NCBI RefSeq assembly: GCF_019968905.1
Contig: NZ_CP079946.1
Coordinates: 7,847,356-7,911,355, forward strand
Origin: Corallococcus sp. EGB
GTDB lineage: Bacteria; Myxococcota; Myxococcia; Myxococcales; Myxococcaceae
DNA: 64,000 nucleotides
Direction: 5' to 3'
The position numbers and the translations under genes were made by a program. The notes beneath the pieces were generated by a model. That model had not been told where the DNA came from. It ran no database searches and worked only from the letters and a program-made list of their open reading frames with translations. This document shows, one piece after another, positions 3,533 to 18,119 of the stretch (position 1 is the first letter of the stretch; every line of letters starts with the position of its first letter).

Positions 3533-5758
3533 CTACTTCTTCAGGGTCTGCTCGAAGTGGGCGATGACGCGCTCGTACTGGCGCTCGGTGACGACGGGGT
3601 CCGGCACCATGTGCGTGAGGCCGGACAGCGGCAGCAGCTGGTGCGGCTTGCCCGCGCGGAAGAGGGCATCCGACAGCTTCAGCGTGTGGAAGAAGTACAC
3701 GTTGTCATCCGCGGTGCCGTGGATGAGCAGCAGGGCCCCAATGGGGCTGTCCTTCTTCGCGTACGTCAGCAGGCTGCTGACCTCGTAGGCCTGGGGGCTC
3801 TCCTCGGGCAGGCCCAGGTAGCGCTCGGTGTAGTGCGTGTCGTAGTCGCGCCAGTCCACCACCGGGGCGCCGGACACGGCGGACTTGAAGAAGTCCGGGC
3901 GCTTCAGCGCGGCCAGCGCGGCCATGTAGCCGCCGAAGCTCCAGCCGGTGATGCCCACGCGGCTCAAGTCCATCTCCGGCACCTCCTTCGCCAGGGCCTG
4001 CACCGCCTCAATCTGATCATCCAGGGTGACGGTGGCGAAGTCGTGCTTCACCGCGCGGTTCCAGTCGGAGGTGCGCAGCGGCGTGCCGCGCCCGTCCACC
4101 TTCACCACCAGGAAGCCGTGGTCCGCGAACCACTGGCTGAGCAGGTGCGCGGCCATGGACTGGTGCACGACGGTGACGGTGGGGCCCGCGTAGACCTCCA
4201 CGATGACGGGCAGCTTCTGGCCGGGCTTGAAGTCGCGCGGCTTCACCAGCGAGGTCCAGAACTTCTTCGGGCCCACCTGGCGCACCTCGAAGTTCGGCGT
4301 GAAGGGCGGCTCCTGCGCCACCTCGGGCAGCTCGCCCAGCTTCGTGCCGTCGGCCTTGAGCACCAGCGTGCGCGGCATGCTCTTGGGGCCCTGGGTGTTG
4401 AGGACGATGAGGCCGCCGTTCTTGGAGACGAGGCCGTTCTCCACGGCCGGGCCGGTGGTGCCGGTGGACACCTGCTCCGGAGCGCCGCCGGACTTCACGC
4501 GCCACAGGTGGCTTTCGGTGGGGTTGGGGCCGCCGGTGAAGAAGAGCGTCTTGTCCGCCTGGACGAAGCGGGCGAGGTTGCGGAAGCCCGCGTCCGGCTT
4601 CACCACGGAGCGGTCCAGCTCACCGTTGGCCTTGCGCAGCTCCACCTCCGCGCCGCCGTTGCGCTCGGTGTACCAGAGGAAGCCGGAGCCATCCTCCAGC
4701 CACAGCGGGAAGTCCTGGGCCAGCTCCACCCACGCGTTGTCCTTCTCCGTGAGGAGCACGCGCGTCTTGCCCGTGGCGGGGTCCACCGCGAGCACCTGCT
4801 CCTCCGTCTGGAGGCGGTTCTGCACCACGAGGGTCAGCGGCCCGCCCTTGTCCCACTTCACCGTGGCCAGGTAGGGGTACTTCGCCGCGTCCCACTGCGC
4901 CCACACCGTCTTGCCGCCGGCGGCGGGCGTGATGCCCAGGCGCACCTTCGCGTTGGCCTTGCCGGGGCGCGGGTACGGGAACACGTCCCCGCCCTTCTCC
5001 GGGTGCATCACGTCCACGATGGTGAGCTTCTCCACGTCGGACGTGTCGGACTCCGTGTACGCGATGGACTTCGAGTCCGGGCTCCACCAGTAGCCGGAGA
5101 AGCGGCTCATCTCCTCCTGCGCCACGAACTCCGCCAGGCCGTGCGTCTTGTCCGCCGTCCCGCCCTGCGTGACGCGCTTCTCCTGGTTGTTGGAGAGCTC
5201 CACCCGGTAGACGTCGTGGTCCCGGACGTAGGCCACCTGCTTGCCGTCCGGCGACAGGCGCGGGTCGATGACGCCGGGGCCCGTCTTGAGCTCCGTGGAC
5301 TTCCCCGTCGCGCGGTCCACCACGTAGAGGCGGCCGGAGAGGGGCACCAGCAGCTGGGTGCCGTCCTCGGAGAGGCTGTAGGAGGTGAAGCCCCGGGCGC
5401 TCACGCGCATGCGCTCGCGGCGGGCCTTCTCCTCGGGGGACAGGGTCTCCTCGGCGCCCTTGAGCAGGGCCTCCGGAGTGAGCAGCTCACGCGCCTGGCC
5501 GCCGGCCACGTCGAACGCGTAGAGCATCTGCACGTTGGACGTGGGGGACGTGCGCAGGAAGAGGACGGACTTCTCGTCAGGGGTGATGCGCGTGCCCACC
5601 GGGCGCCCGCTCTGGAAGCGGCGCGTCTCGGCGTACTGGCGCAGGAAGGTGTCCGGCTGCTTTTGCGAAGGGGCCATGGCGGAGGGTTTGCGCTCCTGGG
5701 CGATGGAGGGGGCGCTGCTCATGAGGAGGAGCGCGGCGGCGGTGAGGACCTGACGCAT
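3533..5758 (-). CDS. Secreted S9 prolyl oligopeptidase family protein, DPP-IV type (copy 1)
   Basis: Serine exopeptidase predicted to remove X-Pro/X-Ala dipeptides from peptide N-termini outside the cytoplasm. The 741-residue protein starts with a signal peptide (about 1-20, ending SIAQ), followed by a beta-propeller domain and an alpha/beta-hydrolase domain. The catalytic triad is visible as Ser607 (GWSFGGYM), Asp684 (GTADDNVYF, the DPP-IV form) and His716 (GLTHMV). The double glutamate that DPP-IV uses to bind the substrate amino terminus is present at 215-216 (VAQEEMSRF, followed by WWSPD). It lies directly downstream of a close paralog in the same direction. The start is the only ATG before the signal peptide; its SD-like AAAGGAG is separated from it by a hairpin. 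Confidence 0.93.
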   Translation of the reverse strand: MRQVLTAAALLLMSSAPSIAQERKPSAMAPSQKQPDTFLRQYAETRRFQSGRPVGTRITPDEKSVLFLRTSPTSNVQMLYAFDVAGGQARELLTPEALLKGAEETLSPEEKARRERMRVSARGFTSYSLSEDGTQLLVPLSGRLYVVDRATGKSTELKTGPGVIDPRLSPDGKQVAYVRDHDVYRVELSNNQEKRVTQGGTADKTHGLAEFVAQEEMSRFSGYWWSPDSKSIAYTESDTSDVEKLTIVDVMHPEKGGDVFPYPRPGKANAKVRLGITPAAGGKTVWAQWDAAKYPYLATVKWDKGGPLTLVVQNRLQTEEQVLAVDPATGKTRVLLTEKDNAWVELAQDFPLWLEDGSGFLWYTERNGGAEVELRKANGELDRSVVKPDAGFRNLARFVQADKTLFFTGGPNPTESHLWRVKSGGAPEQVSTGTTGPAVENGLVSKNGGLIVLNTQGPKSMPRTLVLKADGTKLGELPEVAQEPPFTPNFEVRQVGPKKFWTSLVKPRDFKPGQKLPVIVEVYAGPTVTVVHQSMAAHLLSQWFADHGFLVVKVDGRGTPLRTSDWNRAVKHDFATVTLDDQIEAVQALAKEVPEMDLSRVGITGWSFGGYMAALAALKRPDFFKSAVSGAPVVDWRDYDTHYTERYLGLPEESPQAYEVSSLLTYAKKDSPIGALLLIHGTADDNVYFFHTLKLSDALFRAGKPHQLLPLSGLTHMVPDPVVTERQYERVIAHFEQTLKK

Positions 5759-5794
5759 GCGTAGCTGAATCCCCGCGCGAGGCGGGGCTCCTTT
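5759..5794 (-). promoter_or_regulatory. SD-hairpin-start leader of S9 peptidase copy 1
   Basis: On the minus strand AAAGGAG (5794-5788) is followed immediately by a 6-bp stem (5771-5776 with 5782-5787, five-base loop) and then 12 nt before the ATG at 5758. The same arrangement precedes copy 2. Confidence 0.55.
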
Positions 5795-5910
5795 CGCGAG
5801 AAGGTGCGGGCAAGCCTACACTCCGGCCGCCGCGCGGCCCTCCCAACGTCCGGCCCTGGTGAGGATTCCCACGGGAAGCGGGCGGCGCCCGCGGCACCTG
5901 GACCTTCCCG

Positions 5911-8091
5911 CTACTTCAGGTTCTGCTGGAAGTGGGCGATGACGCGCTCGTACTGACGCTCCATGACGAGCGGGTCCGCCACCATGTGCGTGAGGCCGGA
6001 CAGGGGCAGGAACTGGTGCGGCTTGCCCGCGCGGAAGAGGGCATCCGACAGCTTCAGCGCGTGGAGGAAGTACACGTTGTCGTCCGCGGTGCCGTGAACC
6101 ACCAGCAGCGCGCCGATGGGCCCCTCCTTCTTCGCGTAGGTCAGCAGGCTGTTGACTTCGTAGGCCTGGGGGCTCTCCTCGGGGAGGCCCAGGTAACGCT
6201 CGGTCGCGTGCGTGTCGTAGTCGAGCCAGTCCGTCACCGGAGCACCCGCGACGCCGGCCTTGAAGAAGTCCGGGTGCTTCATCACCGCCAGGGCGGACAT
6301 GTATCCACCGAAGCTCCAGCCAAAGATGCCCACGCGGCCCAGGTCCATCTCTGGCACCTCCTTCGCCAGGGCCCGCATCGCATCCATCTGGTCCTCCAGG
6401 ATGGGGGTGGCGTAGTCGTGCTTCACCGCGCGGTTCCACTCGGCGGTGCGAAGCGGCGTGCCGCGCCCGTCCACCCGCACCACCAGGAAGCCCTGATCCG
6501 CCATCCACTGGTCGAGCAGGTGCACGGCCATGGACTGATGCACCATGGTCTTGATGGGGCCGCCGTAGATGTCCACGATGACGGGCAGCTTCTTGCCGGG
6601 CTTGAAGTCACGCGGCTTCACCAGCGACGTCCAGAACCTCCTCGCGCCCACCTGACGCACCTCGAAGTCCGGCGTGAAGGGGGGCTCCTGGGCGACGGAA
6701 GGCAGTTCGCCCAGCATCGAGCCATTGCCCTTGAGCACCAGCATGCGAGGCATGGTCTTGGGGCTCTGCCTGCTGAGGACGATGAGCCCCCCGTCCTTGG
6801 AGACGAGGCCGCCCTCTTCCGCGGAACCGCGGGTGCCCGTGTCCACCCGCTCCGGCGACCCTCCGAGCTTCACGCGCCACAGGTGGCTCTCGGTGGGGTT
6901 CGGGTCGCCATTGAAGAACAGCGTCTGGTCCGCCTGGACGAAGCGGGAGAGGCTCCGGAAGCCGACGCCCGGCTTCACCACGGAGCGGTCCAGGTCCCCG
7001 TTGGCCTTGCGCAGTTCCACTTCCGAAGCGCCGTTGCGGTCGGTGTACCAGAGGAAGCCGGAGCCATCCTCCAGCCACACCGGGAACTCCTGGTGCAGGT
7101 CGATCCACGCCGCGTCCTTCTCCGTGAGGAGCACGCGCGTCTTGCCCGTCGCCGGATCTACCGCGAGCAGTTGTTCTTCCGTCTGGGGCCGGTTCTGCAC
7201 GAGCAACGTCAGCGGCCCGCCCTTGTCCCACTTCACCGTGGCCAGGTAGGGGTACTTCGCCGCGTCCCACTGCGCCCACACCGTCTTGCCACCCGTGACG
7301 GGCGTGATGCCCAGGCGCACCTTCGCGTTGGCCTTGCCCGCGCGTGGATAGGGGAAGGTTGCCCCGGGCTGCTCCGGGTGCATCACGTCCACGACGGTGA
7401 GCTTCTCCACGCCGGACGTGTCGGACTCCGCATAGGCGATGAACTTCGAGTCCGGGCTCCACCAGTAGCCGGAGAAGCGGTTCATCTCCTCCTGCGCCAC
7501 GAACTCCGCCAGGCCGTGCGTCTTGTCCGCCGTCCCGCCCTGCGTGACGCGCTTCTCCTGATTGGCGTTCAGGTCCACCCGGTAGACGTCGTGGTCACGG
7601 ACGTAGGCCACCTGCTTGCCGTCCGGTGACAGGCTCGGGTCGATGACGCCGGGGCCCGTCTTGAGCTCCGTGGACTTCCCCGTCGCGCGGTCCACCGCGT
7701 AGAGCCGTCCGGCCAGAGGCACCAGCAGGCGCGTTCCGTCCTCGGAGAGGTCGTAGGACGTGAAGCCCCGGGCACTGACGCGCATGCGCTCGCGGCGGGC
7801 CTTCTCCTCGGGGGACAGGGTCTCCTCCGCGCCCTTGAGCAGGGCCTCGGGCGTGAGCAGCTCTCGCGTCTGTCCGCTGGCCACGTCGAACGCGTAGAGC
7901 ATCCGCACGTTGGACGTGGGGGACGTGCGCAGGAAGAGGACGGACTTCTCGTCGGGGGTGATGCGCGCACCCACGGGCCTCCCGTTCATGAACCGCCCTG
8001 TCTCGGCGTACTGGCGAAGGAAGGACGAATGCTCCTGGGCCAGGACGGGCATCCCCAGGAGGAGCAGCGCGACGGTGACGAATGGACGCAT
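5911..8091 (-). CDS. Secreted S9 prolyl oligopeptidase family protein, DPP-IV type (copy 2)
   Basis: Paralog of the downstream gene, with long identical stretches throughout both domains. It has 726 residues: a signal peptide (about 1-17, ending PVLAQ), a beta-propeller with the VAQEEMNRF double-Glu motif, and a hydrolase domain with Ser593 (GWSFGGYM), Asp670 (GTADDNVYF) and His702 (GLTHMV). The frame is open upstream to 8310, but the ATG at 8091 begins the signal peptide and shares its leader layout with copy 1. Compared with copy 1 it lacks about 15 residues of the linker after the signal peptide. The pair looks like a tandem duplication with both active sites intact, so the two copies may differ in substrate or expression. 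Confidence 0.92.
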   Translation of the reverse strand: MRPFVTVALLLLGMPVLAQEHSSFLRQYAETGRFMNGRPVGARITPDEKSVLFLRTSPTSNVRMLYAFDVASGQTRELLTPEALLKGAEETLSPEEKARRERMRVSARGFTSYDLSEDGTRLLVPLAGRLYAVDRATGKSTELKTGPGVIDPSLSPDGKQVAYVRDHDVYRVDLNANQEKRVTQGGTADKTHGLAEFVAQEEMNRFSGYWWSPDSKFIAYAESDTSGVEKLTVVDVMHPEQPGATFPYPRAGKANAKVRLGITPVTGGKTVWAQWDAAKYPYLATVKWDKGGPLTLLVQNRPQTEEQLLAVDPATGKTRVLLTEKDAAWIDLHQEFPVWLEDGSGFLWYTDRNGASEVELRKANGDLDRSVVKPGVGFRSLSRFVQADQTLFFNGDPNPTESHLWRVKLGGSPERVDTGTRGSAEEGGLVSKDGGLIVLSRQSPKTMPRMLVLKGNGSMLGELPSVAQEPPFTPDFEVRQVGARRFWTSLVKPRDFKPGKKLPVIVDIYGGPIKTMVHQSMAVHLLDQWMADQGFLVVRVDGRGTPLRTAEWNRAVKHDYATPILEDQMDAMRALAKEVPEMDLGRVGIFGWSFGGYMSALAVMKHPDFFKAGVAGAPVTDWLDYDTHATERYLGLPEESPQAYEVNSLLTYAKKEGPIGALLVVHGTADDNVYFLHALKLSDALFRAGKPHQFLPLSGLTHMVADPLVMERQYERVIAHFQQNLK

Positions 8092-8124
8092 GCGTGATTG
8101 AACCCCGCGGGACGGGGCTCCTTT
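8092..8124 (-). promoter_or_regulatory. SD-hairpin-start leader of S9 peptidase copy 2
   Basis: AAAGGAG (8124-8118, minus strand) is followed by a 5-bp CCCCG/CGGGG stem (8103-8107 with 8113-8117) and then 11 nt to the ATG at 8091. The stem and SD match copy 1 while the loop differs. Confidence 0.5.
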
Positions 8125-8180
8125 CGCGGCAAGATGGGACACGTCTCGAACGCCGGAGTCTGGAGGGGATTTCCTCCCGC

Positions 8181-8960
8181 ATGAACCCAAATGATGACGT
8201 TGCCCTGCGCCACCTGCGCCTCGCGGGCGTGGTGCGGTTGGGGCTGGGCGGAGGCCGGGGCCCGACGGATGCGTATGTGTTCGACCCGCATCGGCTCGCA
8301 CTGCCCGCATGGGCCTGTGCGCTCGGCGATGAGGGGCCCCCTGCCCTGCTCGTCACGCTGGACCGGCACCTGGACATCGTGGTGCCCGAGCGCCCCGCGG
8401 ACATGCCGGACCGCTCCGCCGGCCTGCGCGCCTTGGATGAACACACGCGGTGGCGCCTGGACGTGCGCAACTACGACCACATCCTCGCGGCCATGGAGGC
8501 GAACCTCGTCGGTGACGCGCTGCTCATCGCGCGCACCCGGCCCCGGGGCTCCTTCTCCGGGGACACCTACGTGGACACGCGCGGCCGCTCGCACCGCATC
8601 GTGACGGTGACGACGGTGGACCGCGCGGCGGAGGCGTACCTGCACCCCGGCCCCACGGACGCGGTGCGCGACGTCCTGGAGGCCGCGTCCGCCGTGCTGC
8701 TGGACCTGGACCTGGACTGCTTCACCAGCCTGAGCGACGCGGACCCCACCACCGTGCTGCCGTGGCCGAAGTCCGTCATCCGCGAGTTCCTCCTGCCGCC
8801 CGACTCGGAGCCCTTCTGGGACGCGGTGCTGGGCAAGGCGGTGGCGCTGACGCTCGCGCGCGAGCCGCACCACTGCGGCGGGCTGCTCGCGTCCGGCGAG
8901 CTGTTCCGCGACGTGGCGGACGTCCTCTTCCGCGAGCTGCTGCGCGTCGAGCCGCCCTGA
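8181..8960 (+). CDS. UPF0489 family protein (arginase-like fold)
   Basis: A 259-residue cytoplasmic protein resembling UPF0489, a family with an arginase/deacetylase-like metal site. Metal-binding-type motifs seen are DRHLD at 61-65 (compare DxHxD of arginases), RNYDH at 96-100 and LDLDLDCF at 174-181. Some UPF0489 members are peptide arginases that turn arginine into ornithine in ribosomal peptides; nothing near this gene looks like such a precursor, so the substrate is unknown. I chose ATG 8181, preceded by GGAGGGG at 8162-8168, over an upstream frame extension that would overlap the peptidase start. The gene is divergent from the S9 pair and ends 6 bases from the convergent BamA-like gene. 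Confidence 0.75.
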   Translation: MNPNDDVALRHLRLAGVVRLGLGGGRGPTDAYVFDPHRLALPAWACALGDEGPPALLVTLDRHLDIVVPERPADMPDRSAGLRALDEHTRWRLDVRNYDHILAAMEANLVGDALLIARTRPRGSFSGDTYVDTRGRSHRIVTVTTVDRAAEAYLHPGPTDAVRDVLEAASAVLLDLDLDCFTSLSDADPTTVLPWPKSVIREFLLPPDSEPFWDAVLGKAVALTLAREPHHCGGLLASGELFRDVADVLFRELLRVEPP

Positions 8961-8966
8961 GAAAAG

Positions 8967-10925
8967 TCAAGGCGAGTCGAGGAACGTGGGCCGGTAGTCC
9001 GTCACCTGCCCGCTGCTGAGCGACAGGCGGCTGCCCACCGGGGGACGGTCGCCGTTGAGCACGTAGCCGAAGTCGATGCGGAACGGGAACACGTTGAACT
9101 GCGGGAACAAGAGCCGCAGGCCCACGCCCACCGTGGTCACCATCTCCGGCCGCTTGTTGAACGCGCTGCCGGAGTCGACGAAGAGCACGCCGCCCAGGTG
9201 CACCGTGCGCACCACGACGGGCGCGGTGCGGTACTCCAGGTTCACCAGCAGCAGCCGCTTGCCGGAGTACGCATCCACCGCCGCGCCGCGCAGGCCGTTG
9301 CTGCCGCCCAGCAGGCTCACGCGCTCGGACAGGTCGTCGATGTTCACGTCCAGCAGGCCGCGCGCCACGAAGCGCCCGCCAAGGACGCGCGGCGACACCT
9401 GCACCAGCTCCGCGGCCCAGCGGCGGTTCGTCCAACCCTCCTTCACGCCGGGCTGGCTCGCGCTGAACTGCTGGCGGATGGACGCGGCCGCGGACGCGGT
9501 GGTGAGCGCGTCGCCCCAGTGCACGCGGTAGCGCACGGACAGGCCGCTTTCCACGAAGTGCGCCGCGGACGGGAACACCGGCGGCGCGTAGCGCAGCGTG
9601 GCCACCACCGAGTGCCCCAACTGGAAGTCCTCCGACAGCGTGTACGAGTCCACGTTGCGAAGGACGTCGTAGCGGGCCTCGAAGGCGCTGAGGGAGAAGT
9701 TCGCGTACCCCGCGTCCTCCGCGCGCGGCAGGTAGTTGCGGCGGAACCAGTCCGTCTGCGCGTCGGTGAGGTGGGACGCCACCGGCGCGGCGTAGGCGTA
9801 GTGGTAGGCCCCCGCGCCCATGCCCACGTTCCACTTGTAGCGCTGCCCGTAGGAGCGCGTGTACGTGGCGCCCGCGGCCACCTCGCGCGTGTTGTAGACG
9901 TACGGGATGGGGTCGCCGTCCGGGAACGGGAGCTGCCAGATGTCCGCGCCCCGGAACTGCCGCGCGGTCTCCATGTTCCACGCCACGGACGTGCTCAGGC
10001 TCCACGGCGTCGCCAGCGAGTACAGCGGCCGGCTGACCACGAGGCTCCCGCGAGAGCCCTCCGCGCGGCCCGTGTCGCGATTGATCAGCACCGCGGCGGA
10101 CTCCGTCAGCGACCAGCGGCTGCCGAGCACGCGCTTGTCCGTGTAGCTCTGGCCGAAGCTGAACGTGTCCAGGCGCATGATGAAGTCCAGCGCCACCTTC
10201 TTGCCGCGCCCCAGGAAGTTCTGCTCCGTGCCCTGAAGGCGCAGGTAGAGCAACAGCGAGCCCACGGCGGAGAACTCGTTGTTGAGCCGGAGCGACCACA
10301 GGTCCTTGGTCACCAGCAGCAGCGCGACCTTGTCCGGCGCACTGCCCTTCACCGGCACCGCGCGCACGACGGAGAACAGGCCCAGCTTGCGCAGGTTGCG
10401 CACCGACTCCGCGACGAGCGCCTCCGAGTACGGCTGCCCCGGCGAGATCAGCACCTCCCGGCGGACAACCTCGTCGCGGGTGCGGACGTGGAAGATGTTG
10501 AGGAACGAGGGATACGGATCCGTCGGCGCGACCACCTCCTCCGCGGTGACGAGCACCTCCTCCAGCACCTTGCCCTCGGGCGCGGGCTCCACCTGGCGCT
10601 CGACCTCGCCCAGGCCCCAGGCGATGAGCGCGTCCTCGTAGTTCTTCGTGCTCTCGGCTTCCGTGGTGGCCACGGGCGCCTGCGTGCCCTCCGGCCCCAC
10701 CGGGACCTGCTCCGCGCGCGGTGGCGCGGCGACCTCCGTGTTCGACACGCCCGAGGGCTCATCATCCGGCGAGCGCACGGGCGCGTCCGGAGGCACGACC
10801 TCCTGGGGCTTGCCCGAGCCATCCGGCGCGGGCGGCAGCGGCGTATCGGAAGGGGAGGTCTGTCCCGCCGGAGCGCCGGTCGCGGCGAGCACGGTGACCA
10901 GCAGGACGGGCAGGGAGAGCGGCAC
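8967..10925 (-). CDS. BamA/TamA-like outer-membrane protein (Omp85 superfamily)
   Basis: A 652-residue predicted outer-membrane beta-barrel. There is an N-terminal signal peptide (about 1-22), a low-complexity Pro/Glu/Ala stretch to about 95, and a POTRA-like segment (about 110-190, with REVLISPGQPYSEALVAESVR). The rest is a barrel domain whose loop motif GGSNGLRGA (near the C-terminal quarter) matches the (V/L)RG motif of Omp85 proteins. Only one POTRA-like repeat is evident, against five in BamA and three in TamA, so it is probably an accessory Omp85 protein rather than the essential BamA. The start must be GTG at 10925, because an in-frame stop lies five codons upstream. It follows the BtuF-like gene by 41 bases, a likely operon. 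Confidence 0.8.
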   Translation of the reverse strand: MPLSLPVLLVTVLAATGAPAGQTSPSDTPLPPAPDGSGKPQEVVPPDAPVRSPDDEPSGVSNTEVAAPPRAEQVPVGPEGTQAPVATTEAESTKNYEDALIAWGLGEVERQVEPAPEGKVLEEVLVTAEEVVAPTDPYPSFLNIFHVRTRDEVVRREVLISPGQPYSEALVAESVRNLRKLGLFSVVRAVPVKGSAPDKVALLLVTKDLWSLRLNNEFSAVGSLLLYLRLQGTEQNFLGRGKKVALDFIMRLDTFSFGQSYTDKRVLGSRWSLTESAAVLINRDTGRAEGSRGSLVVSRPLYSLATPWSLSTSVAWNMETARQFRGADIWQLPFPDGDPIPYVYNTREVAAGATYTRSYGQRYKWNVGMGAGAYHYAYAAPVASHLTDAQTDWFRRNYLPRAEDAGYANFSLSAFEARYDVLRNVDSYTLSEDFQLGHSVVATLRYAPPVFPSAAHFVESGLSVRYRVHWGDALTTASAAASIRQQFSASQPGVKEGWTNRRWAAELVQVSPRVLGGRFVARGLLDVNIDDLSERVSLLGGSNGLRGAAVDAYSGKRLLLVNLEYRTAPVVVRTVHLGGVLFVDSGSAFNKRPEMVTTVGVGLRLLFPQFNVFPFRIDFGYVLNGDRPPVGSRLSLSSGQVTDYRPTFLDSP

Positions 10926-10966: not shown

Positions 10967-11836
10967 TCACTCCAGCGCCGTGCGCAGGTCTCCCGGCCGG
11001 GCCATGGGCAGCTTCTCCCCCCGGGCAATGGCCGCCACGATGCGGGCCAGCTGATCCACCCCGTCCGAAAGCGCCGCCGGCCCTGGCTGGAGGATGTACG
11101 TGCTCTTGACCTCGTAGAGCTGGTCGTCCAGCACCGCGCGCACGCCCTCCCAACCCGGCCGGGCGACGATCTTCTCGCGCTTCGCCTTGCGCCCGCACCA
11201 GCTGGCGATGACGCCCTCCGGGTCGCGCTTCGCCACCTCCGCCGGGTCGAAGATGCGCCCCTTCGCGCCCTGCGACGCGCGCGACTCCTGGCACACGTCC
11301 ACCCCACCCACCACCTCCACCAGCTCCGAGCACCAGCGGATGCCGGAGATGAGCGGCTCGTGCCACTCCTCGAAGAAGATGCGCGGCCGCTTCGGCAGCG
11401 ACTGCGCCGCGTCCGAGTGACGCTCCAGGTTCTTCTCCAGCTCCTCCGCCAGTGCCTCCGCGGGCTCCGCGCGCCCCACCAGCGCGCCCGTCAGCCGCAC
11501 GGCCTGGAGGATCTCGGCGAGGGAGCGCTGGTTGAACAGGTACACGGGCACCCCGCGCTTGCACAGCTCCCGGCCGATGTCCGCCTGCAGGTCGCTGAAG
11601 CCCAGCACCAGGTCCGGCTTCAGCTCCAGGATGCGCTCGAAGTTCGCGTCCAGGAACGAGCTGACCTTCGGCTTCTTGCGCGCCTCCGGCGGCCGCACCG
11701 TGAACCCCGACACGCCGACGACCAGGTCCCCCGCGCCAATGCGGTAGAGCACCTCCGTCGTCTCCTCCGTCATGCACACCACCCGCCGCGGATGGCGCGG
11801 CGCCGACGACAACAGCGCGGACAGCTGGGCATTCAT
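10967..11836 (-). CDS. BtuF-like cobalamin/metal-chelate-binding protein without a signal peptide
   Basis: A 289-residue protein with the class III periplasmic binding fold of BtuF/FepB-type proteins (RVVCMTEETTEVLYRIG, GDLVVGVSGFT, LKPDLVLGFSD, FFEEWHEPLISGIRW). Family members bind vitamin B12 or chelated metals and hand them to a BtuCD-type ABC importer. From the ATG at 11836 there is no hydrophobic signal segment, and the possible N-terminal extension to 11896 is Arg-rich rather than signal-like. No permease or ATPase gene is adjacent. It may be cytoplasmic, or may serve a transporter encoded elsewhere. It heads a likely two-gene unit with the BamA-like gene. Confidence 0.78.
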   Translation of the reverse strand: MNAQLSALLSSAPRHPRRVVCMTEETTEVLYRIGAGDLVVGVSGFTVRPPEARKKPKVSSFLDANFERILELKPDLVLGFSDLQADIGRELCKRGVPVYLFNQRSLAEILQAVRLTGALVGRAEPAEALAEELEKNLERHSDAAQSLPKRPRIFFEEWHEPLISGIRWCSELVEVVGGVDVCQESRASQGAKGRIFDPAEVAKRDPEGVIASWCGRKAKREKIVARPGWEGVRAVLDDQLYEVKSTYILQPGPAALSDGVDQLARIVAAIARGEKLPMARPGDLRTALE

Positions 11837-12031
11837 GCCGGAAACCCTAACCCGCCCGCGCCCCCTCCACCGGGGATGACGCAACGCGCCGACCACCGCG
11901 CTCTGTGCGGCAACGGACGCTGATTTCCGCGTTTTCCCAAAGCCACCGGGGACGCGGCAGGACGGGAGGTGCGGGAGGACGGGCGTGCGGCGCGGGCCGG
12001 AAACTCGGCGCCGGGGCGCCGCGAAGATAGC

Positions 12032-12124: not shown

Positions 12125-13738
12125 ATGATCGAAAGCGACGCCCGCCGCCAGGGCGCGCCCGCCGACGTGCCGGATCCCCTGCTCGGGCGGATCCTCAACG
12201 AGCGCTTCCGCATCCTGGAGACGCTTGGCGCCGGAGGCATGGGCCGCGTCTACAAGGCCATGCAGGCGCCGTTGGACCGGCTGGTGGCGCTCAAGGTCCT
12301 CAACCCCCAGTACAGCGGCGAGGGCAAGGACCCCGGCTTCCAGAAGCGCTTCTTCCTGGAGGCCAGCGTCACCGCGAAGCTGCGCCATCCGAACACCGTC
12401 ACCGTCATCGACTACGGCAAGACGGAAGACGGCATCTACTACATCGCCATGGAGTACCTGGAGGGGCTGACGCTGTCGCAGCTGCTCACCCAGGAAGGGC
12501 CGCTGCCGTGGGAGCGCGCGCTCGCCATTGGCCAGCAGGTGGCCCGCTCGCTGCGCGAGGCGCACAAGGTCGGCCTCATCCACCGCGACCTCAAGCCCGC
12601 CAACGTGATGATCCTCAACCAGGAGTCCGACCACGACGTGGTCAAGGTCCTGGACTTCGGCCTGGTGAAGTCCTTCGCGGGCGACGCCGCGATGAAGGAG
12701 GACACCACCCTCACGCAGGCGGGCGTCATCCTGGGCTCGCCGCAGTACATGGCGCCGGAGCAGGCGCGCAACATCGCGGACCCGCGCAGCGACGTGTACA
12801 GCCTGGGCGTGGTGCTCTACCAGACGCTGATGGGCCGCCCGCCCTTCCAGGCGGCGCAGAGCATCGACGTCATCGTCAAGCACATCAACGACCCGCCGCC
12901 CCCCTTCCACACCGTGTGGCCGGACCACAACGTGCCCGCGGAGGTGGAGTCGCTGGTGATGAAGTGCCTGGCCAAGCGCCCCGTGGACCGCTACGCGTCC
13001 ATGGACGCCGTGCTCCAGGGCATGCGCGCCGCGGCGTCCGCGTCCGGCGTCAGCGGCGTCTTCGCCACGCGCACCGGCCTCAACGCGGTGGGCTCCGGCC
13101 CCCACAGCGGTCCGCACAGCGGCATCCACACCGGCCCCCACCACCTGGGCTCCGGCCCCACGCCCGCGCCCAACACCATGGCGCTGGACATCTCCGTGGA
13201 CGAGGGCGGCGGCCTCGCGGAGAAGAAGTCCGGCAAGGGCCTGGGCATCGCCCTCTTCGGCGCGTCCCTGCTCGTGGGCCTGGGCGTGGCGGGCTTCTTC
13301 GTGCTGCGCGGGCCCCAGAAGCCGCCAGCGGAGGAGCTGCCGTCCGCGCCCGTGGCGCGCACGCCCGCCGCGCCGCCGCCCGCGCGCGAGCCCGCCGCCG
13401 TCGCGGAGGCTCCCGCCGTGGCGCCGCACCCGGCCATCCTCCGGCCCATCCGCTTCGACGTGGACAGCGAGCCCCAGGGCGCGGAGGTGAAGGTCGCCGG
13501 CAAGGTGCGCGGCACCACCCCGGTGGTCGTCACCTACACTCCGGATGGACCAGGCCTGGCGGACGTGGAGGTGTCGTTCGAGCTGGAGGGCTACCAGCCC
13601 CTCAGCAAGGTCTACTCGGGAGAGCCGGGGAGCACCGTGCCCGTTTCCATCAAGCTGACGCGCATCAAGAAGCAGGCTCCCAAGCCCGCCCCCCCGGCCC
13701 CCGCTTCTTCCAAGTACAAGGACAATCCGTACCAGTGA
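12125..13738 (+). CDS. Membrane-anchored serine/threonine protein kinase with PEGA domain
   Basis: A 537-residue Hanks-type kinase. The cytoplasmic kinase domain (about 28-300) has all key residues: glycine loop GAGGMGRV (35-42), Lys57 (VALKVL), HRDLKPAN (153-160), DFG at 177-179 and MAPEQ. A Gly/His/Pro-rich linker follows (HSGPHSGIHTGPHH), then a single membrane span (GIALFGASLLVGLGVAGFF), a Pro/Ala stretch and a periplasmic PEGA domain (DSEPQGAEVKVAGKVRGTTP). I chose ATG 12125 because of the purine-rich GGGGGAA just upstream; an upstream in-frame start at 11969 adds unrelated residues. Its TGA overlaps the next gene's GTG, so the kinase is translationally coupled to the receptor. Confidence 0.95.
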   Translation: MIESDARRQGAPADVPDPLLGRILNERFRILETLGAGGMGRVYKAMQAPLDRLVALKVLNPQYSGEGKDPGFQKRFFLEASVTAKLRHPNTVTVIDYGKTEDGIYYIAMEYLEGLTLSQLLTQEGPLPWERALAIGQQVARSLREAHKVGLIHRDLKPANVMILNQESDHDVVKVLDFGLVKSFAGDAAMKEDTTLTQAGVILGSPQYMAPEQARNIADPRSDVYSLGVVLYQTLMGRPPFQAAQSIDVIVKHINDPPPPFHTVWPDHNVPAEVESLVMKCLAKRPVDRYASMDAVLQGMRAAASASGVSGVFATRTGLNAVGSGPHSGPHSGIHTGPHHLGSGPTPAPNTMALDISVDEGGGLAEKKSGKGLGIALFGASLLVGLGVAGFFVLRGPQKPPAEELPSAPVARTPAAPPPAREPAAVAEAPAVAPHPAILRPIRFDVDSEPQGAEVKVAGKVRGTTPVVVTYTPDGPGLADVEVSFELEGYQPLSKVYSGEPGSTVPVSIKLTRIKKQAPKPAPPAPASSKYKDNPYQ

Positions 13739-16290
13739 ATCCCCCGACAGCCTTCCGACGTGGAGCGCTCCTCGCGCTGTGTCTCTGCGCGACCGAGGCC
13801 CTGGCGGACGCGCGCCTCGAAGCGCGCCGCCACTTCCGCAATGGCATGAACCTCATCGAGCAGAAGCAGTTCGATGAAGGCATCGCCGAGTTGGAAGAGG
13901 CCTACAACATCAAGCCGCACCCCAGCGTCCTCTACAACATCGCCCGGGCGTACCAGGACGCGGGCCGGCTGGAGGAAGCGCTGGATGCCTACAAGCGCTA
14001 CCTCGCCTCCAACCCGCCGGACGCCGCCAGCGTGCAGGCCCAGGTCGCGCGCCTGGAGGCCACGCGCCAGGCCGCGCAGGCGGAGGCGCCCGCTCCCGGC
14101 ACCCAGGCGGGCACGTCGGGCAGCGCCACCGGCCTGCCCATGCCCCCGCCGCCCCCCACGAGCATCCAGGCCCAGCAGCAGCTGGCCGCGCTCATGGAGC
14201 GGCTGGAGAAGGCCGTGGCCCGCGCGGAGTCCATCTCCGCCCAGCCCCAGGCCCCGCAGCCCGCGGCCGCGCCCGCCACCGGTGCCACCTCCAGCGGCAG
14301 CGCCGGCTCCGGCGACACCTCCGGGGACCAGGGCCTGGTGCCGTACGAAGAGCGCGTGGTGACGGCGAGCCGCCGCGCCCAGTCCTCGCTGGAGGCGCCC
14401 AACGCCACCACCGTCATCACCGCGGAGGACATCCGCCTGTCCGGCGCCACCACGCTGCCGGAGCTCCTGCGCCGCGTGCCCGGCGCGGACGTGATGGCCA
14501 TGGGCGTGGGCAGCGCCAACGTCAGCCTGCGCGGCTTCAACCAGCGCCTGGCCAACAAGGTGCTGGTGCTGGTGGACGGCCGCACCGAGTACCAGGACTT
14601 CCTCGGCCTCACGCTGTGGGCGGGGCTGCCCATCGGCCTGGAGGAGATTGACCGCATCGAGGTCATCCGCGGCCCGGGCAGCGCGCTGTACGGCGCCAAC
14701 GCCATGCTGGGCGTCATCAACATCATCACCCAGGCCCCCGGCACCGGCCGGCGCGCGCGCTTCGGCGTCATGGGCGGTGGCGGCAACACCGTGCAGGGCT
14801 CCTTCGTCAGCCACGGCCAGAGCGGCGACCTGCGCTACCGCGCGTCCGCCGCGTACCGCCAGGAGGACAAGTGGACCCGCGACTACGCGAGCGGCCGCCC
14901 GGACTTCGCCGTGGAGGGGCCCGCGGATCCGGACCTGGGGGTGCGCGGAGCCCGCGCCAACCTGTCCACGGTCTACACGTTCCAGGAGGGCCGCTCGATT
15001 GGCCTCTCCGGCGGCGTGCACCGCTACCTCACGGAGATCTATCCGCTGGGCCTGCTGCGCAACTACTACATCGACGGCCTGGGCGCGTACGCCAAGGCCG
15101 ACGTGGAGCTGGGCGCGGTGAAGCTCAAGGCGTTCTGGAACCACCTGTCCGGCGACGCGGGCCCCCAGTACGAGGCCATTGGTCAGCGCTCGCTGGGCAT
15201 CCAGGTGGCCTCCAACGTCTTCAACGGTGAAGCGCTGTACGCGCGCGGCTTCGAGCTTGCGGGCGAGCACCAGGTGAACATCGGCGTGGAGGGCCGCTTG
15301 AAGCGCGTGGCCTTCACCTACCTGGACGACCTGCGCGAGGAGTTCCACGCGGCGGCCTTCGTCCAGGACGACTGGCACATCGTGCAGCCGCTGCGCCTCA
15401 TCGTCAGCTACCGCGTGGACCGGCACCCGCTGCTCGACAAGGGCAACCCGGGCCTCGCGCAGTCCCCGCGCCTGTCCGCGGTGTTCCAGCCCATTGAAGG
15501 GCACGCCTTCCGCGCGTCCGTGGCCACCGCCTTCCGCGAGCCCACGTTCCTGGAGAGCTACACCCGGCTGCCGGTGCCCGTGCCGGGCGTCAACGGCGTG
15601 AGCCTGCTGACCACCGGCAACCGGACGCTGCGCCCCGAGCGCCTCAACGCGCTGGAGCTGGGCTGGCGCGGTGAGTCCCCGCGCCTGGGCCTGGACTGGG
15701 ACGTGGCCCTCTACCAGAACACGGTGAAGGACCTCATCGCGCTGTCGCCCGTGCAGCCTTTGCCCGCCGGCGAGTCCTATGACCGCGGCACCGGGAGCTA
15801 CCTGCTGGGCCGCTCCATGTTCACCAACGAGGCCGCCATCTACACCGCGCGCGGCGTCGAGGCGGGCATCAACGTGTCCCCCATCGACGGCCTGGGCGTG
15901 AAGGCGAGCGCCGCGTACCAGCACATCAGCTCCGACCTGCCGGACGACGGCCAGTGCGGCACGTGCAGCCAGACACCGGCCTTCCGGCTCTTCGGCGGCA
16001 TCACCTACCGCACGCGCACGGACCTGGAGTTCGGCATCGAAGCGGCGTTCACCTCCTCCACCACCTGGGTGGAGCGCGAGCCCTCCGCGTCCGACCCGAC
16101 GCGCGTGGCCCTCATCGCCAACAACCTCCCCGCGTACACCGTCGTCAACGCCCGCGTGGGCTACACCGTGGTGAAGGACTTCGTCTCCGTGGCGCTGCAG
16201 GGCAGCCAGCTCGGTGGCAGCCACGCGGAGCACCCCTTCGGCAACCGCATCGAGCGGCGCGTGTTCGCCAACCTCACGGTGACCCCATGA
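13735..16290 (+). CDS. TonB-dependent receptor with an N-terminal TPR domain
   Basis: An 851-residue outer-membrane receptor for TonB-energised uptake. A signal peptide (1-26, ending EALADA) is followed by TPR-like repeats (about 30-105: FDEGIAELEEAYNIKPHPSV, YNIARAYQDAGRLEEALDAY) and a Pro/Ala/Gln linker with a short coiled coil. Then come a TonB-box-like VVTAS (208-212), a plug domain (about 215-330, with SLRGFNQR and DRIEVIRGPGSALYGANAM) and a 22-strand-type barrel. The ligand is not deducible. The TPR extension in front of the plug is not standard. The start is GTG 13735, overlapping the kinase stop (GTGA) and followed at once by the signal peptide. Its own stop overlaps the lipoprotein start. 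Confidence 0.92.
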   Translation: MNPPTAFRRGALLALCLCATEALADARLEARRHFRNGMNLIEQKQFDEGIAELEEAYNIKPHPSVLYNIARAYQDAGRLEEALDAYKRYLASNPPDAASVQAQVARLEATRQAAQAEAPAPGTQAGTSGSATGLPMPPPPPTSIQAQQQLAALMERLEKAVARAESISAQPQAPQPAAAPATGATSSGSAGSGDTSGDQGLVPYEERVVTASRRAQSSLEAPNATTVITAEDIRLSGATTLPELLRRVPGADVMAMGVGSANVSLRGFNQRLANKVLVLVDGRTEYQDFLGLTLWAGLPIGLEEIDRIEVIRGPGSALYGANAMLGVINIITQAPGTGRRARFGVMGGGGNTVQGSFVSHGQSGDLRYRASAAYRQEDKWTRDYASGRPDFAVEGPADPDLGVRGARANLSTVYTFQEGRSIGLSGGVHRYLTEIYPLGLLRNYYIDGLGAYAKADVELGAVKLKAFWNHLSGDAGPQYEAIGQRSLGIQVASNVFNGEALYARGFELAGEHQVNIGVEGRLKRVAFTYLDDLREEFHAAAFVQDDWHIVQPLRLIVSYRVDRHPLLDKGNPGLAQSPRLSAVFQPIEGHAFRASVATAFREPTFLESYTRLPVPVPGVNGVSLLTTGNRTLRPERLNALELGWRGESPRLGLDWDVALYQNTVKDLIALSPVQPLPAGESYDRGTGSYLLGRSMFTNEAAIYTARGVEAGINVSPIDGLGVKASAAYQHISSDLPDDGQCGTCSQTPAFRLFGGITYRTRTDLEFGIEAAFTSSTTWVEREPSASDPTRVALIANNLPAYTVVNARVGYTVVKDFVSVALQGSQLGGSHAEHPFGNRIERRVFANLTVTP

Positions 16291-17513
16291 AGCGCGCCCT
16301 TCCCCTCCTCGCCTTCGCGCTGACGTCGCTGCTGTCCGGCGGCTGTGATGTCCCGGACGTGGTGCCCACCGCGGACGGCCGCCAGCACACGCGCTCCGCC
16401 CGCATCGAGGGCAACCTGGTGGTGCAGTCGCGCGCGCGCGGCAACGCCATCGTGTTCCTCTACGACGCGGCCAACCCGCCGCCGCCCGCGGGCTCCGGCC
16501 GGCCTCGGGCCTTCACCGTCGTCACCGCCGCGGAGCTGTTCGGCGCGTCGCTGGGGGACAACTCCCCGGGCCCGTTCACCGCGCCGTTCGCGCTGAGCCT
16601 CGTGGACCCGGGCCGCTACATCCTGCGCGGCTTCATCGACGCGGACACCTGCCGGAGCATGCCCCAGCCCTGCCACGTGCCCGACTTCAACCCCTGGTAC
16701 GGCGTCACCTCCGAGCCCAACGCGGGCGACGTGGGCGGCGGCGCGGTGGACCCCATCACCAGCGCCACGCGCGTCCTGGAGATCACCACGGACGCGGACG
16801 GCTGGCCCCAGCCGCTCACCGGCGTGTCCGTGTCCTTCTCGGACTCGGCCACGGTGCCCTTCGACCGGCCCGCGTTCCAGACCGCGGATCCGCGCGAGTT
16901 CAACACCGCCAGCACGCCGACGAAGCTGCTGACGCTCACGCCGCAGGTGCTCACCGGCGCGGTGGACCAGCGGCCTCCCGGCTTCTGGGTGCAGCTCGCG
17001 GATGCCAACAAGGACGGCCTCCCGGACGACGCCAACAGCGACGGCGTGCCGGACATCGCCTGGCCCCGCGTCATCGTGCGCAAGCTGGCGGAGGGCGTGA
17101 CGGGCTACGTGGACGAGAACGACCTCAACCGCGACGGCGTGGTGGACGCGGAGGGCGTGGACTACGCGCGCGCGAGCGGCGGCAAGGACGGCAAGCCGGA
17201 CGCGGTGGTGCTGGCGGCCGGCCTGGTGGCCGACCCCCTGCTCCCTGCCCTGCTGGATGAGCAGGGGCGCATCCGCCCGCAGCCCGTCTTCGTCCCGCAG
17301 CTGGTGGTGGCCATCCGCCCGCAGGCGCTGGACGCGCGCGACCCCGCCGCGCCCGCGCCGCTCGCGGCCGTGCCCCCGGGCCGCTACAGCATCACCCTGC
17401 TGCAGTCCACGGGGCAGACCTGGCGGCTGCCCAACGAGCTGGACCCGGCGCTCGCGGAGCCCGCAGGGCTGCCGGGCGTGCCGTCCCAGTCCTTCGTGCT
17501 GGACGTGCGCTGA
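16287..17513 (+). CDS. Lipoprotein with EF-hand/thrombospondin-3-like calcium-binding repeats
   Basis: A 408-residue protein of unknown function. The N-terminus (MKRALPLLAFALTSLLSGGC) is a lipoprotein signal with Cys20 as the lipidation site; the -3 to -1 residues SGG are not textbook. Two Asp-rich loops, DANKDGLPDDANSDGVPD and DENDLNRDGVVDAEGVD (around 235-295), resemble EF-hand or thrombospondin type-3 calcium sites. The start codon overlaps the receptor stop (ATGA), so it belongs to the kinase-receptor operon. As a surface or periplasmic lipoprotein next to a TonB receptor it could help capture the ligand, by analogy with other receptor-lipoprotein pairs; this is an inference. Confidence 0.8.
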   Translation: MKRALPLLAFALTSLLSGGCDVPDVVPTADGRQHTRSARIEGNLVVQSRARGNAIVFLYDAANPPPPAGSGRPRAFTVVTAAELFGASLGDNSPGPFTAPFALSLVDPGRYILRGFIDADTCRSMPQPCHVPDFNPWYGVTSEPNAGDVGGGAVDPITSATRVLEITTDADGWPQPLTGVSVSFSDSATVPFDRPAFQTADPREFNTASTPTKLLTLTPQVLTGAVDQRPPGFWVQLADANKDGLPDDANSDGVPDIAWPRVIVRKLAEGVTGYVDENDLNRDGVVDAEGVDYARASGGKDGKPDAVVLAAGLVADPLLPALLDEQGRIRPQPVFVPQLVVAIRPQALDARDPAAPAPLAAVPPGRYSITLLQSTGQTWRLPNELDPALAEPAGLPGVPSQSFVLDVR

Positions 17514-17579: not shown

Positions 17580-17636
17580 CCGCGACCATGGGCGGTGCCG
17601 CTGGAGGCATTCCGCTCCCCCGAGGTTCTGAATCCG

Positions 17637-18119
17637 ATGAAGGTCGGCCCCCTCTCCGCCCCTGAAACCGCGCCCTCCCGTCCCACGGGAAGCACCCCCT
17701 CGGTCCGTCCGGCGGGAGGGACAGGTGCGCAGCGCGTGCTGCTGGTGGACGACAGCCGCTCCATCCGGACGCTGCTGAAGATCTACCTCATGGCCCGGAG
17801 CTTCGAGTTCCTGGAGGCCGAGTCCGCCGAGGAGGGCCTGAAGATCGCCGAGGCGGAGCCCGTGGACCTCATCCTCACCGACTTCCACATGGACGGGATG
17901 AACGGCGCGGACTTCGCCGGGCAGATCCGCGCCAGCAGCAACGTGAGGCTGTCCAAGGTCCCCATCCTGATGATGACGGGCGACCCGAACGTGGCGGAGG
18001 TGCGCGCCCTGGGCCAGAAGGCCGGCATCAGCGCCTTCGTGCGCAAGCCGGTGAGCTGCGCGCAGCTGATGACGCTGGTGGACACCATCCTCCCGCTGCC
18101 CCGCGCCGCCGCGAAGTAG
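17637..18119 (+). CDS. Single-domain response regulator (CheY-like)
   Basis: A 160-residue protein consisting of about 30 unstructured residues and one receiver domain. The acidic pair D38-D39, phospho-acceptor D82 (LILTDFHMDGM), T114 (MMTGD) and K137 (VRKPVS) are all in place, so it should be phosphorylated by a histidine kinase, with no output domain of its own. No histidine kinase gene is next to it. The ATG at 17637 has GAGG 12 bases upstream; a GTG at 17595 would add 14 residues. A terminator separates it from the receptor operon, so it is probably transcribed on its own. Confidence 0.9.
   Translation: MKVGPLSAPETAPSRPTGSTPSVRPAGGTGAQRVLLVDDSRSIRTLLKIYLMARSFEFLEAESAEEGLKIAEAEPVDLILTDFHMDGMNGADFAGQIRASSNVRLSKVPILMMTGDPNVAEVRALGQKAGISAFVRKPVSCAQLMTLVDTILPLPRAAAK

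Follow-up and report, generated by a model that had tools for sequence, protein, structure and literature searches.

A conserved kinase, TonB-dependent receptor and lipoprotein gene unit of Myxococcaceae that may transmit signals across the envelope

The genes for a Hanks-type Ser/Thr kinase, a TonB-dependent outer-membrane receptor and a lipoprotein lie in immediate succession on the plus strand of the window (the whole 64,000 nucleotide stretch analysed, C1:7847356-7911355 of a host genome consisting of a single 9.43 Mb contig) and constitute, with near certainty, one conserved gene unit. The kinase occupies positions 12125-13738, the receptor 13735-16290 and the lipoprotein 16287-17513. Analysis of the three products suggests that the unit may span the envelope, with the receptor serving as transducer for the membrane kinase, a model that is given an even chance of being correct.

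The first-pass annotation had reported that the three open reading frames (ORFs) are joined by GTGA and ATGA overlaps, and the ORF coordinates bear this out. The kinase stop codon (TGA, 13736-13738) overlaps the receptor start codon (GTG at 13735), and the receptor stop codon (TGA, 16288-16290) overlaps that initiating the lipoprotein (ATG at 16287). Start-stop overlap was retained at 52 of the 72 kinase/receptor junctions scored and at 33 of 35 receptor/lipoprotein junctions, and since the overlaps recur in this manner the translational coupling of the trio exceeds chance.

Kinase, receptor and lipoprotein were kept together in almost every Myxococcaceae genome examined, including all genomes of the same genus where the contig allows, in which the three genes were located by tblastn in the same order and on the same strand. 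The trio was also present in other genera of Myxococcaceae and, beyond that family, in f2, f7 and f10. The contigs scanned for related loci included those of Corallococcus, Myxococcus, Hyalangium and Polyangium and represent a sample rather than a census. Conserved synteny of the trio had been put forward as a check on the original annotation; far from being rarely adjacent, the homologues were found to adjoin one another across genera and families. Two Polyangium loci (L074 and L075) possess the kinase and receptor without the lipoprotein, which argues that the kinase and the TPR-bearing receptor are the core of the unit. Tandem arrangements were also encountered: at L076 (3942-13012) one kinase is followed by two receptor-lipoprotein pairs, as if serving two receptors, and L089 likewise exhibits tandem receptor-lipoprotein-receptor copies.

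The kinase comprises 537 amino acids, with a kinase domain at residues 29-295 (12209-13009; Pfam Pkinase, 161.8 bits) that contains the hallmarks of the Hanks type, namely the catalytic lysine, HRDLKPxN and DFG. Alignment of six diverged kinase homologues showed VALK (K57), HRDLKPAN and DFG to be invariant. The best NCBIfam match, PknB_PASTA_kin, scored 314 bits against a cut-off of 450 and covered the kinase part only. Hydropathy analysis yielded a single strong hydrophobic stretch, the predicted membrane span, at about residues 375-395 (13247-13309), beyond which lies a PEGA domain (residues 446-513, 13460-13663; Pfam, 26.4 bits, over the cut-off). With one membrane span at this position, the PEGA domain is therefore predicted to lie outside the cytoplasm. 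The PEGA domain of the L069 homologue was modelled by AlphaFold2 as a beta-sandwich with a pLDDT over 95. Outside the kinase domain, invariance was nearly limited to a C-terminal tail and a few PEGA residues, the linkers between the conserved parts being otherwise unalignable; about 50 residues separate the span from the PEGA domain and about 20 separate the PEGA domain from the tail.

The receptor (851 amino acids) is initiated at GTG and is ordered as signal peptide, TPR domain, long Pro/Ala-rich linker, TonB-box-like stretch, plug and barrel. The TPR domain was placed at residues 40-104 (13852-14046) by a match to Pfam TPR_19 of 32.7 bits, over the cut-off, and includes the motif IKPHPxVL, invariant in the receptor alignment (A1). 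The stretch EERVVTAS (14347-14370), about 100 residues beyond the TPR domain and ahead of the plug, is a putative TonB box recognised by resemblance to known examples; EE.VVTA or a close variant was kept at the expected place in the same alignment. Plug (residues 220-327, 14392-14715; PF07715, 81.7 bits) and beta-barrel (residues 370-821, 14842-16197; PF00593, 124.2 bits) follow, and among solved receptors Cir and BtuB are closest in sequence. No match to the STN domain was found in the receptor by Pfam, the TPR domain occupying that place. Pfam and hydropathy thus agree with the initial description of a kinase with an outside PEGA domain and a receptor with an added TPR domain.

Within the host genome, a TPR domain of this type accompanies one of 21 plug-domain matches, that of the window receptor only. 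Among the matches listed from the contig scan, TPR-bearing receptors had this kinase upstream wherever the contig reaches, whether next to them or with a tandem receptor copy in between. For 57 TPR-less TonB receptors among these matches the upstream sequence was long enough, and in none of them was a kinase motif detected within 4 kb upstream. At one TPR-less locus (L111) a kinase was matched weakly by tblastn (24% identity) at about 2 kb upstream, a match that the motif scan did not count.

The kinase terminates in the conserved extracytoplasmic tail YKDNPYQ (13715-13735), identified by alignment and pattern search, with the consensus [YF]K[DE][DN]PY. Its codon pattern occurs once in the host genome. 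When the tail alone was used in a class-wide search, exactly one match per genome was obtained in 92 of 147 genomes, which are not independent observations because the co-occurrence largely reflects vertical descent of one ancient unit; the reversed tail, used as a control, gave no matches across the same 147 genomes. All 70 tail matches inspected were in-frame C-termini, and all 70 were followed by a TPR receptor on the same strand, in one case (L159) with about 1.1 kb inserted between tail and receptor. In every inspected case where the sequence extended downstream for about 4.9 kb or more, the lipoprotein was found to follow. Looser versions of the tail occur in distant kinases, as with GFKPVPY in L076, and the Polyangium kinases end in a doubled version, YKPDPYKGNPY. 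TPR domains often bind C-terminal peptides, and for this reason the tail is a candidate docking peptide, the part of the kinase through which contact with the receptor would most plausibly be made.

As a stand-in for co-folding, AlphaFold2 was applied to L069, where the kinase tail and the TPR domain are naturally in frame and were joined by reading the TGA codon between them as tryptophan. Both the PEGA and TPR domains folded with a pLDDT mostly over 95; the tail had a pLDDT of about 40-52 and no docking was predicted, in what was a weak test given a thin alignment with two paired rows. As the tail was unstructured in the model, this test did not strengthen the docking idea.

The lipoprotein is 408 amino acids long and possesses a signal peptide and a lipobox (LSGG-C20), yielding a predicted mature N-terminus at Cys20, which is invariant in alignments A4 and A8. 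No Pfam family scored above its cut-off. The fold model is a set of beta-sandwiches with a mean pLDDT of 70, and a fold search with this model returned generic beta-sandwiches, the best with a Z of 6.4 (fimbrial-anchor and pilotin-type folds); the resemblance, at middling Z, is to surface and pilin-type beta-sandwiches. Calcium-loop motifs had also been reported for this protein, and loops of the form D-x-[ND]-x-D-G are indeed present (DANKDGLPDDANSDGVPD, at 17001-17054, and DENDLNRDGVVD) and mostly conserved in alignment A8; the assignment to calcium is at motif level and Pfam offers no support for it. In M. xanthus, lysine is found at position +2 of 8 of 12 inner-membrane lipoproteins (PMC3222651). 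The +2 residue of the present lipoprotein is not lysine, which makes placement at the outer membrane plausible. A TonB receptor and a lipoprotein, MXAN4746 and MXAN4747, were both recovered in the outer-membrane proteome of M. xanthus (PMC3222651) and are candidate orthologues of the receptor and lipoprotein described here. In family f7 the lipoprotein ORF extends to about 1,000 to 1,400 amino acids and contains several copies of the same module (L056:7198-11400 and L057:8712-11732).

Downstream of the lipoprotein lies a gene for a single-domain response-regulator receiver (17595-18119, plus strand), which keeps this position across Myxococcaceae and is a possible fourth member of the unit. 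Genes of the MsrQ/MsrP type follow the receiver on the opposite strand. Upstream and divergent from the trio, a gene for a Peripla_BP_2 (BtuF-like) protein without an obvious signal peptide (10967-11896, minus strand) is linked to the unit in several Myxococcaceae genera only. Rfam gave no match in the window at gathering scores, and a B12 reading of the locus is therefore without the support of a cobalamin riboswitch. The neighbours tested were the Peripla_BP_2 protein, the receiver, an Omp85 protein and UPF0489-like, MsrQ-like and MsrP-like proteins. Neither FecR nor an STN domain nor a sigma factor was found in the unit or among these neighbours, so that the first-pass claim of a trio lacking the usual FecR and sigma factor holds for the unit and the neighbours tested; the five FecR-type matches in the genome all lie outside this locus.

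Other combinations of the same parts occur in this genome, in which 29 PEGA matches were found, some of them inside or beside several TonB receptor loci. A second operon (L240:5243-9904, within C1:6951000-6965000) is encoded on the minus strand and consists of genes for a kinase with a C-terminal membrane span (8540-9904), for a protein anchored in the membrane that contains two PEGA domains and a TPR-like stretch (about 7411-8530) and for a TonB receptor (5243-7276), an order that is kept in the genus and in genomes G022 and G020. Elsewhere (L239:5573-8491), a single-chain TonB receptor is composed of a signal peptide, a TPR domain, three PEGA-type domains, plug and barrel, and no kinase is adjacent to it. 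The genome thus shows three combinations of TPR, PEGA and TonB receptor, of which two include a kinase, and a working relation between these parts is therefore favoured. The kinase tail, the second operon and the single-chain fusion, none of which the first-pass annotation had mentioned, are the most telling indications that these parts function together. Both the second operon and the trio combine kinase, TPR, PEGA and TonB receptor in a conserved operon. In contrast to the trio, the second operon carries TPR and PEGA on a separate inner-membrane protein, its kinase ends in the membrane span without a tail, and no lipoprotein was noted.

Under the transducer model, the barrel would bind a ligand at the outer membrane, the lipoprotein perhaps acting as a capturing or lid partner. 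Ligand and TonB action would then shift the plug and TonB-box region and so reposition the periplasmic TPR domain, by analogy with transducers of the STN type. The TPR domain might in turn bind or release the kinase on its extracytoplasmic side, most probably through the tail, the PEGA domain or both, as co-occurrence and conservation suggest. Clustering or activity of the kinase domain would change and cytoplasmic targets would be phosphorylated; more speculatively, the receiver is a candidate target. Hints as to ligand and targets come from Cir and BtuB as the receptors of closest sequence, from the divergent BtuF-like gene and from the receiver. The trio had earlier been read as a sensing route of this kind, and the synteny, the lack of FecR and sigma factor and the intact catalytic residues agree with that reading, whereas the TPR-kinase contact, the sensing of a ligand and the inward direction of the signal are elements that we infer. 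The model is favoured because gene order is conserved, TPR domain and kinase co-occur, the tail is conserved, the catalytic residues are intact, a second operon and the L239 fusion exist, and FecR, STN and sigma factor are missing. It is weakened because AlphaFold2 docked no tail, the genomes share descent, and TPR and PEGA domains are common in myxobacteria.

The same observations may be read differently. The trio might be an uptake operon that encodes its own regulatory kinase, the kinase and receptor sharing physiology without touching; PEGA would then sense something in the periplasm, either the cell wall or the substrate taken up, and the partner of the TPR domain would be TonB/ExbD, a chaperone or another periplasmic protein. 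Coupled translation and synteny need only a shared function, no tail was docked by AlphaFold2, and PEGA and TPR domains are widespread, all of which is compatible with such an operon. However, the tail was found only in kinases beside a TPR receptor and none of the 57 TPR-less receptors had a kinase motif nearby, both more specific than shared physiology predicts, and this explanation is considered rather unlikely. Control from the inside outwards, where the kinase tail would tether or gate the receptor so that the state of the cytoplasm governs outer-membrane uptake, requires the same anatomy as the transducer model, and the data are compatible with either direction; the linkers of about 50, 20 and 100 residues could, if extended, cross the periplasm. 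Single-span Hanks kinases with extracytoplasmic domains are nevertheless usually taken to be sensors of outside signals, and control in the outward direction is held to be improbable.

A scaffold or envelope-assembly role, with TPR receptor, lipoprotein and PEGA kinase forming a structural complex and little ligand-specific signalling, is less probable again. It would accord with the surface and pilin-type beta-sandwiches that the lipoprotein model resembles at middling Z and with a single-copy, strongly conserved unit, but the intact hallmarks of both the kinase and the TonB receptor argue for catalysis and transport. That three unrelated genes are adjacent by chance is refuted by the synteny, and also opposed by the co-occurrence of the tail and the conserved overlaps; no point in support of chance adjacency was found, and its likelihood is negligible.

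SusC/SusD and BtuB/BtuG are TonB receptors lidded by lipoproteins, and in these systems, as in the trio, the receptor gene adjoins a lipoprotein gene. Lids of this type have a SusD-like or beta-propeller fold; the lipoprotein of the trio, for which a lid role is conjectural, matches no Pfam family over the cut-off and its model gives generic beta-sandwich matches. PASTA kinases such as PknB and Stk1 share with the kinase of the trio a cytoplasmic kinase domain, one membrane span and an outside sensor module, from which the latter differs in its PEGA domain, its C-terminal tail and its translational coupling to an outer-membrane receptor. Cell-surface signalling involves an inner-membrane anti-sigma factor whose periplasmic part interacts with the additional N-terminal domain of the transducer (PMC11637429). 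The FecA/FecR/FecI and FoxA/FoxR/FoxI systems (PMC11637429) share with the trio a receptor in which an additional N-terminal domain, located in the periplasm, precedes the TonB-box region, plug and barrel, as well as an inner-membrane partner that has one membrane span and a C-terminal part in the periplasm. Where the FecA and FoxA transducers have an STN domain, however, the receptor of the trio has a TPR domain; in place of an anti-sigma factor of the FecR type (FecR/FoxR) there is a Ser/Thr kinase with PEGA domain and conserved tail; and the unit is without an ECF sigma factor, the main clade adding a downstream lipoprotein. By its sequence the unit is assigned to the TonB-dependent receptors and Hanks-type kinases, but it lacks the features by which cell-surface signalling of the classical kind is defined.

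In the literature library searched, in which few subscription papers are included, no account was found of a TonB receptor that is coupled to a Ser/Thr kinase. It is tentatively proposed, with somewhat less than even confidence, that TonB-dependent transducers may be wired to eukaryotic-type Ser/Thr kinases through periplasmic contacts of TPR with PEGA or tail, in at least two layouts in myxobacteria, an arrangement hitherto undescribed. Known signalling through TonB receptors ends in a sigma factor; a route ending in a kinase, if true, would tie ligands at the cell surface directly to the phosphorylation of proteins. Its key step is one that a simple binding experiment with the short conserved tail and the TPR domain could address. 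In bacteria whose numerous Ser/Thr kinases have few inputs that are known, the transducer model, if true, would supply one such kinase with a concrete and testable input.
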